DNA of 37,947 bases from Candidatus Moranbacteria bacterium GW2011_GWC2_37_8. GTDB taxonomy: Bacteria > Patescibacteriota > Minisyncoccia > Moranbacterales > GWC2-37-73. The position numbers and the translations under genes are program-made. Positions 19,074-21,186 of this stretch are shown here, piece after piece; the stretch's first letter is position 1; every line of letters begins with the position of its first letter. The notes under the pieces are model-generated. The model made no database searches. It had not been told where the DNA came from and worked only from the letters and a program-made list of their open reading frames with translations. The stretch spans positions 1 through 37,947 of the forward strand of contig LBTS01000002.1 of assembly GCA_000992165.1 (NCBI GenBank), in the 5' to 3' direction.

Positions 19074-20258
19074 TTAAACCATTTTTTCCAATTCAGGAAG
19101 AATATCTTGCAAATCCCCCTTCAGTAAGTAATCCTCTTCTCCCACAAAATTAGGTTGCACGAGATTTATAGCAATCAATTTACCATTTGGATTATTTTCT
19201 TTATACCAAGCCAGCATACCTCTATCATCACTGCTCAATCCTACAGTAATAATTGCATCAATTTCTTTCAGCCAACTTGGCTGAATGTTTTCTTTTAACC
19301 AATCTCCAGTGGGTCTAAGTGCCTGAATTCCAGTTTTTTCATGCAAGTGATCCACATTCTCTGTGAATATCTTGCATTGCAATTTTTCAGCCAATCTCGT
19401 CAACGCTGAGTGCGCAATAGTCGGTCCATTTTCGAATGCAGCATTAGCAAAATCATCCCAAGGCTTAAGGGCTTTCTCGGGTTCACTGACTGCAAGCATT
19501 ATTAACTCATCACTATTCCTCAATCCATCTAATCTTAGTGATTTTTCAAGATCCTGCATCCCATAAACTCCTCCAGCCACTGAAATCCCAGCGCCCGTAT
19601 AAAACAAAACTTTTTTACTTTTCAATATTTCACAAACTTTCTCAATATCCATTTCCACAGGACTTGGCTTTTCAATGACCTTAGCAACTTCCAATCTTAC
19701 TTTTTTAAATATTTCTTCATCCAATAATCCCTCCGATCCTTTTCCATTCCTATGATTATCAAAAATTGTTTTTGCTATTTCCAAAGATTTTTCAAGTGTG
19801 AAATTTGAATTTCTCAAGACAATATCCGCATATACTTTTATGTTTTTATCGTCATCAGCAAATCTTATAAATCCTGCATTACTAAAATCTCTCTTTTTGG
19901 TTATGCAATAGCTTTTAGGTTTTTTATTATTCTCAACATCCTCTTCGAATTTTTCCTCTTTTTTTGGAGTAGTGCCAATGTCTAGAATAAAAACATCTTG
20001 TTCTATGCCATCAACCTGCTTTCTTATTTTGGTAAATTTCTTTCTTTCATCTTCAGTTAATGATTCTGGAAGTGCTTGATAGCATTCAATATGTATGAAG
20101 GAACCATTTGGAGAATGCATGAGATCAAATTTTCTCGTATCAAAAGAAAAACCAAAATCCATTGCTCTTGTTTTTTCAATCACTTTTTCCGGTCCTCTTA
20201 ATAAAGGATTTTCTTTTTTGATTTCTTTTGCTTGTGTAAAAATTCTTTCACCTTCCAT
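19074..20258 (-). CDS. divergent Sir2-like protein with a novel N-terminal domain (394 aa)
   Basis: Residues about 210-394 are a Sir2/SIRT-type NAD-binding fold: GAGIS in FYTGAGISVAGGVYG (about 221), HSALTRLAEK, TENVDHLHEKTG (the TQN-I-D position) and ITVGLSSDD, INLV. Between TENVDH and ITVG only about 35 residues remain, so the zinc ribbon (no CxxC pair) and the catalytic HG motif appear missing, and the usual IPDFR is VYGMQD. Deacetylase activity is therefore doubtful; NAD binding, hydrolysis or sensing are alternatives. Residues 1-210 match nothing I know. It begins 23 nt after the Bro-N gene, so both belong to one transcription unit. Weak SD. Confidence 0.8.
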   Translation of the reverse strand: MEGERIFTQAKEIKKENPLLRGPEKVIEKTRAMDFGFSFDTRKFDLMHSPNGSFIHIECYQALPESLTEDERKKFTKIRKQVDGIEQDVFILDIGTTPKKEEKFEEDVENNKKPKSYCITKKRDFSNAGFIRFADDDKNIKVYADIVLRNSNFTLEKSLEIAKTIFDNHRNGKGSEGLLDEEIFKKVRLEVAKVIEKPSPVEMDIEKVCEILKSKKVLFYTGAGISVAGGVYGMQDLEKSLRLDGLRNSDELIMLAVSEPEKALKPWDDFANAAFENGPTIAHSALTRLAEKLQCKIFTENVDHLHEKTGIQALRPTGDWLKENIQPSWLKEIDAIITVGLSSDDRGMLAWYKENNPNGKLIAINLVQPNFVGEEDYLLKGDLQDILPELEKMV

Positions 20259-20280
20259 AAATCTCTATTTCAAAAAAAAA

Positions 20281-21126
20281 TTATCTCAATCGTTTATCTT
20301 TCCTTCTTAAAGCCAGAAAATTTTCACCTGTCACCACACTTTTTCCGGTTTTTTCTTCGAGTGCAAGCCGGGCATCTTTGGCGATTTTTCCACCTTTTTT
20401 CGCGGGAATTTTGTTTTCCTCTAAGCCACGAGATTCCAATGTTTCGGCAATTTGACGTGTGGAAAGTTCCGCCAAGGCAGTGAAAACCAATTCCGCGTCG
20501 GACATATGATCGCGCAAATTTTGCGTTTTAAGATTTTTCAAATTTTTATGCTCACCAACAGTGAGGTCGCTCCATTCCTGATGAATTATATTCGTCAAAA
20601 TTGCAAATTCATCTTGCTTTTCCACCTCATTGTTTTTCCAATAGTCCGTCAGCTTGTTTCGGATTTCCTGCCCCATCATTCTTTGCTGGATCCATTTTTC
20701 ACTGCGACCCATTTTTTGCCAATATCCCCTTGAACGATTCACGCCCTTTTCCGGATCAGACATTTCCTGAATTCTTTCATAGCCAACTTTTGCCAGCCAC
20801 AATTTGATTGGTTCAGCTTTCTTGGAAGGCACTGATTGAATTAGACGCAAAATGGTTTCCACATTAGCCACGTCAGTTTCGCGCATTTTTCCATCTTGCG
20901 CTAACATTTTCAACTGGTCACAATTTGTGACCAGTTCACTACCTTCATCTTTTAGTCTATTTTTCAATGTTGTCCAGTAGCTTTTAGCCTTCTTGAAATT
21001 TTTCTGATCAATCAACGCCGCCACAACGTCAATCACCGAAAAAAACCAAGTTTCAGTTTTTTCATCGAAGTGCCGACGAATTTTGAAATTCTCAAAAATT
21101 GCCAGCGAATCTTCATTGTTTTTCAT
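20281..21126 (-). CDS. Bro-N (antirepressor-like) domain protein
   Basis: 281 aa. Residues about 10-120 form a Bro-N domain (FKIRRHFDEKTETWFFSVIDVVAALI, then KAKSYWTTLKNRLKDEGSEL), the DNA-binding module of phage antirepressors and of DinD-type proteins. The C-terminal part (about 125-281; WQKMGRSEKWIQQRMMG, EWSDLTVGEHKNLKNLK, NLRDHMSDAELVFTALAELSTRQIAE) is the extension found in non-phage chromosomal members. No SD. The promoter and a 9-bp inverted repeat over its -10 box suggest autoregulation. The Sir2-like gene follows after 23 nt. There are no phage structural genes around it. Confidence 0.85.
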   Translation of the reverse strand: MKNNEDSLAIFENFKIRRHFDEKTETWFFSVIDVVAALIDQKNFKKAKSYWTTLKNRLKDEGSELVTNCDQLKMLAQDGKMRETDVANVETILRLIQSVPSKKAEPIKLWLAKVGYERIQEMSDPEKGVNRSRGYWQKMGRSEKWIQQRMMGQEIRNKLTDYWKNNEVEKQDEFAILTNIIHQEWSDLTVGEHKNLKNLKTQNLRDHMSDAELVFTALAELSTRQIAETLESRGLEENKIPAKKGGKIAKDARLALEEKTGKSVVTGENFLALRRKDKRLR

Positions 21127-21146
21127 ATTGTTTTTTGTTTTAACGT

Positions 21147-21173
21147 CTTATAGTGATATCTTAACACTATAAG
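21147..21173. promoter_or_regulatory. inverted-repeat operator before the Bro-N gene
   Basis: Perfect 9-bp arms CTTATAGTG (21147-21155) and CACTATAAG (21165-21173) flank a 9-bp centre that contains the -10 box. The geometry equals that of CIRCE (9-9-9) but the sequence differs. A bound protein would occlude the promoter. Confidence 0.7.
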
Positions 21174-21186
21174 CAAAAGTCGTCAA
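21158..21186 (-). promoter_or_regulatory. promoter of the Bro-N/Sir2-like operon
   Basis: Minus-strand TTGACG (21186-21181), a 17-nt spacer and TAAGAT (21163-21158). The leader is about 25 nt. Confidence 0.7.

Follow-up and report, generated by a model that had tools for sequence, protein, structure and literature searches.

A predicted LexA (SOS) box over the promoter of a Bro-N gene with a rare Sir2-like passenger in a Patescibacteria genome

In a window of 37,947 nucleotides from Candidatus Moranbacteria bacterium GW2011_GWC2_37_8 (contig LBTS01000002.1, positions 1 to 37,947), we propose with considerable confidence that a two-gene locus (Table 1) comprises a Bro-N gene placed under SOS control through a predicted LexA box and a Sir2-like gene that is carried as a rare passenger. 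The palindrome over the Bro-N promoter is very probably the LexA (SOS) box of this Patescibacteria order, which suggests that the Bro-N gene belongs to the DNA-damage response. The order thereby gains a concrete candidate for its SOS box, together with a predicted damage regulon that is filled with genes of the phage-antirepressor type, namely Bro-N, DinD, KilA-N, ORF6N and RhuM-Fic, and the candidate defence family PDC-S13 gains a regulatory context. The result also prevents the naming of a two-gene defence system from a single chance adjacency.

A reading of this stretch from the sequence only had described a unit of a Bro-N and a Sir2-like gene, which proved to be real, in that both ORFs lie on the minus strand and each returns a Pfam match; the gap between them is 22 nt, not 23 nt as given there. 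On the coding strand of this gap we found neither a promoter nor a terminator, and the Sir2-like gene is probably co-transcribed with Bro-N. The perfect 9-bp arms that had been placed around the -10 box are likewise exact: the palindrome CTTATAGTG-ATATCTTAA-CACTATAAG (21147-21173; 9-9-9) brackets the -10 element TAAGAT, with TTGACG 17 nt upstream of the latter. As had been stated, no phage genes were seen among the neighbors, which include an alanyl-tRNA synthetase-like gene, an mnmA-like gene, a HAD phosphatase and an ABC transporter, and there is no prophage at the locus.

Table 1. Coordinates of the features discussed; numerical positions are those of the window
Feature	Position	Strand	Remarks
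Bro-N protein	20281-21126	-	281 aa; first gene of the predicted SOS unit; PADLOC candidate family PDC-S13
Sir2-like protein (divergent Sir2 fold)	19074-20258	-	394 aa; catalytic His and Zn module lost
Intergenic stretch, Bro-N/Sir2-like	20259-20280	-	22 nt
Putative LexA (SOS) box, TTATAGTGTTAAGATATCACTATAA	21148-21172	-	21 nt before the Bro-N start codon
Sigma-70-type promoter, TTGACG-17-TAAGAT	21158-21186	-	-10 inside the box
AGGTGAG-N6-CTCACCT sites (candidate second LexA box)	L170-L175		genomes G004 and G177

Taken alone, a perfect 9-bp inverted repeat is unremarkable in this window, which holds 51 of them when nested registers are counted, against 2-9 in Markov shuffles, and several of these resemble terminators. 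Since such repeats abound here, it is recurrence that sets this palindrome apart. It scores 30.1 with a weight matrix derived solely from other genomes, whereas 0.83 Mb of Markov sequence yields nothing above 11.5. In the same genome, which is about 80% complete, a pattern search recovered two further near-perfect copies, each 17 nt before a gene and with the -10 element inside: one precedes a second Bro-N gene on contig C26 and the other the start of a RhuM-Fic gene (323 aa) on contig C7 (L047, 5242-6255). A weaker tandem box, scoring 19.1-19.2 against the same random maximum, lies before an ORF6N-lexA pair on contig C21, and no box was found upstream of the genome's recA.

Across the order, copies of the box occur in 53 of 131 genomes, whereas few matches were obtained with the reversed pattern as a control. 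Their consensus reads TTATAGTGATAT-n-ATATCACTATAA and encloses the -10 box, or is TTATAGTGATATAATATCACTATAA when written with the core TATAAT; a TTGAC-like -35 element is present at many sites, and the -35/-10/box geometry is alike at the other sites. The genes that follow are lexA, recA, rarA, dinD, Bro-N, RhuM-Fic, KilA-N, ORF6N and DNA methylase genes. We fetched about 80 sites, took the gene behind each and scanned 71 such downstream genes, which included 20 with Bro-N, ten with RhuM, nine with Fic, six with LexA (TIGR00498) and five with ORF6N matches, as well as four N6/N4 methylases, three RarA/MgsA and two RecA proteins and nine matches to the DinD model, these being counts over sampled sites and not an unbiased census. 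The weakest matches in the order (L066-L068, L070, L071, L087, L088, L094 and L116) were left out of the convincing targets. Within the class, convincing copies are found in the same family and order only, and the box is in this sense order-specific; we attribute the matches in its distant families to chance, as their spacers are mostly devoid of a -10 element and the reversed control gives similar numbers there. Two of the targets merit separate mention. The RhuM-Fic gene on contig C7 is a candidate SOS-controlled Fic-domain gene, one of a set in which nine box-bearing genes of the order have Fic domains, and a perfect box precedes a DNA methylase gene (L056, 2-1480), the ORF behind which may encode a restriction enzyme, a possible instance of SOS-controlled restriction-modification.

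These targets bear on the earlier view of the locus as a self-regulated stress module. Its operator over the promoter is real and the unit is probably stress-controlled; the part that finds no support is self-repression, according to which Bro-N would bind the palindrome and repress its own operon, with the Sir2-like protein acting as the effector in defence or stress once Bro-N senses infection. It is true that Bro-N domains can bind DNA, that the box stands before many Bro-N genes and that PADLOC lists the family as a defence candidate. However, throughout the order the same operator precedes further SOS genes, lexA, recA and rarA among them, along with methylase and RhuM-Fic genes, and in weaker form the genome's own ORF6N-lexA pair. 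Moreover, conservation of the operator with Bro-N was not seen among the Bro-N homologs of a sample of the whole phylum, which lack this box, two genomes having another box in its place, and the Sir2-like gene is not conserved beside Bro-N. We accordingly regard self-repression as very improbable.

The genome encodes three LexA-like proteins, among which the one on contig C21 is most likely the paralog that binds the box. This LexA/S24 repressor of 219 aa displays the Ser and Lys motifs of S24 (GDSM and MATIK) and a cleavage-like Cys-Gly site (ASCGE), and shares 83% identity with a LexA that has the box directly before its own gene; for the other two LexA-like proteins the figure is only about 30-35%. 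The LexA proteins of box-bearing relatives match TIGR00498. With a matrix trained without the known lexA sites and without sites from this genome, a score of 7 or more is reached upstream of lexA in 22 of the 30 regions of the order, while control regions stay at or below 0.1. Furthermore, presence of the box tracks the C21 LexA subtype: both occur in 45 genomes, the box only in 8, the LexA subtype only in 23 and neither in 55, such that 45 of the 53 box genomes have the subtype (Fisher p 2e-10, kinship ignored). The eight exceptions are box genomes without the subtype at the cut-off used, of which some are incomplete and some of whose matches may be chance.

It might alternatively be supposed that a different global repressor binds the palindrome, or that one of the other two LexA-like proteins does, and that the regulon of this protein merely includes lexA and recA. 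The box-free recA of this genome and its two further LexA-like proteins would fit such a view, which nevertheless runs against the autoregulation of lexA that is typical of LexA boxes, the tracking of the C21 subtype and the SOS-type classes of the targets (DinD, RecA, RarA and LexA), and we hold it to be quite improbable. We know of no LexA motif that the box TTATAGTGATAT-n-ATATCACTATAA matches; a 2017 study of LexA networks in Patescibacteria (doi 10.1111/1462-2920.13826, cited in PMC8565304) may describe it already.

The box of the C21 lexA is degenerate and lies 512 nt upstream of it; an ORF6N-domain gene is situated between this tandem box and lexA (L133, 4865-6075), and lexA may here be the second gene of a phage-antirepressor-type operon with ORF6N. 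The third LexA-like protein (L051, contig C8:10482-10997) has its own upstream palindrome, TTTGTAAAG-N13-CTTTACAAA, with a patatin-like gene directly behind its gene, an arrangement that is perhaps a separate switch.

Under the LexA reading, the C21 repressor would bind the palindrome and block the -10 element of the Bro-N promoter. Upon DNA damage, RecA filaments would trigger its self-cleavage, whereupon Bro-N and the Sir2-like gene that follows after 22 nt would both be expressed. The Bro-N promoter should, on this model, be inducible by DNA damage.

In other Patescibacteria clades we observed a different palindrome, AGGTGAG-N6-CTCACCT, which is a candidate second LexA box. Genome G177 has it before lexA (in two tandem copies) and recA; in genome G004 it precedes a KilA-N gene and two Bro-N genes, and one of these two Bro-N proteins is 70% identical to that of the window. 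The Bro-N family is thus predicted to be under LexA-type control with two different boxes, which suggests that it was repeatedly recruited to SOS control. In the best explanation that we can offer, Bro-N is a mobile SOS gene. Of 287 Patescibacteria genomes, 62 encode members of the family, often several of them, and members also occur on a few phage contigs; on one viral contig with tail and lysin-like genes, a Bro-N gene (L168, 3986-4858) codes for a protein 60% identical to that of the window.

The pairing with the Sir2-like gene is a local feature. Four Bro-N relatives that are 78-85% identical carry the box with no Sir2 gene nearby (over several kb in L107 and L091, and over about 640 nt in L063 and L080). 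Conversely, neither Bro-N nor this box was found upstream of the Sir2 relatives that are readable there (L039, L040, L042 and L003), two others (L038 and L041) beginning at a contig edge. The Sir2-like family occurs in one of the 131 order genomes, we found it over its entire length on just four further genome contigs, and no homologs were found in phages, plasmids or viral contigs. Co-occurrence of the two genes across relatives had been put forward as the check on a conserved module; the genes are not adjacent in related genomes, and with box-bearing Bro-N genes without Sir2, Sir2 genes without Bro-N and a single occurrence in the order, we reject such a module. The Sir2-like gene is probably a rare, horizontally acquired passenger that has come under the same switch here. 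One of its relatives (L039, 3905-5335) lies 6 nt behind the gene for a 68-aa XRE-like HTH regulator, so that a position behind a regulator may not be unique to this locus, although the regulator differs.

The Sir2-like protein matches PF02146 (5.6e-7) over the first half only, and a profile search against PDB retrieved an archaeal Sir2 (E 1.9e-8), while its match to the PADLOC SIR2 profile reaches only E 0.014. It can be divided into a beta-sheet region (33-95, high confidence), a helical segment (125-195) and the Sir2 fold (205-394), the two N-terminal parts being without a Pfam match. The structural model (pLDDT 67) supports the Sir2 fold, with low TM-scores and an unreliable C-terminal end. 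The loss of the HG motif and zinc ribbon noted in the sequence-only reading extends to all seven family members compared: the catalytic His is replaced (by Thr in the profile alignment, the family having TG, TS, SG or NA where HG would stand) and the zinc-binding four-cysteine module is absent. The NAD pocket, for which a check had been suggested, retains its motifs GAGxS and TENxD (TxNxD), which are invariant in the seven, and new invariant stretches around DDRG and WYKExNPNG mark the remodelled half. NAD binding is plausible. An NADase effector role can only be hypothesised, since the protein lacks the catalytic His that is used by sirtuins and likewise by ThsA and DSR2.

We nonetheless considered a reading with the same LexA switch and another role for Sir2, in which LexA might derepress both genes as a damage-triggered pair; the Sir2-like protein would then be an effector that acts by NAD(P) consumption or ADP-ribosylation once cells are damaged or infected. 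The two genes are co-directional with a short gap free of an intervening promoter or terminator, there is a Sir2-fold match, the four motifs invariant in seven members point to a family under selection, and the relative behind the XRE-like regulator offers a parallel. Yet the catalytic His is replaced, the Zn module is gone, a single genome of the 131 in the order has the pair and the readable Sir2 relatives have no box before them, all of which makes this reading unlikely. A bolder form, in which cleavage of LexA switches on Bro-N along with an enzyme of a novel Sir2-fold class, one that uses NAD through an active site remodelled by the invariant DDRG and WYKExNPNG in place of the catalytic His and zinc module, is a long shot; if true, it would link the NAD chemistry of an ultra-small bacterium to DNA damage or to attack by phage. 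The SOS-controlled Bro-N gene with its passenger is our preferred explanation.

The Bro-N protein itself has a Pfam Bro-N match (1.3e-6), and its AlphaFold model from three sequences has a pLDDT of 58. In the PADLOC catalogue it corresponds to PDC-S13, a candidate that it matches nearly end to end (residues 4-278, E 1.4e-117); in the literature searched, no paper naming PDC-S13 was found. With DinD it shares the Bro-N N-terminal domain, a similar length and an SOS box, and the true DinDs of the order carry the same box. An identification as DinD was nevertheless rejected, with no NCBIfam match at 1e-3 and a probability of 8% in the hhalign profile comparison. A published list of RecA-filament regulators includes DinD (PMC4457935), and the LexA-repressed phage antirepressors Gifsy GfoA/GftA and 186 Tum couple SOS to prophage control (PMC3121763). 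By analogy, the window's Bro-N probably acts like DinD, in tuning RecA filaments, or like these antirepressors; in the latter case the likeness lies in predicted LexA control and in the presence of family members on phage contigs, no homology being shown, at a locus devoid of a prophage.

In its general layout, the predicted regulon agrees with the known LexA/SOS regulons in having a self-cleaving S24-type repressor and a palindromic box over the promoter that is common to lexA, recA, rarA and dinD; it differs in its richness in antirepressor-type genes (Bro-N, KilA-N, ORF6N and RhuM-Fic). As for the Sir2-like protein, it resembles sirtuins in its fold and its GAGxS and TxNxDxL motifs, and departs from them in lacking the catalytic His of the HG motif and the zinc-binding cysteines. 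In comparison with the SIR2 NADases of defence systems (ThsA, DSR2 and SIR2-HerA), it keeps the Asn of TENxD while losing the His, and it stands without a TIR or HerA partner, no partner being shared across its loci.
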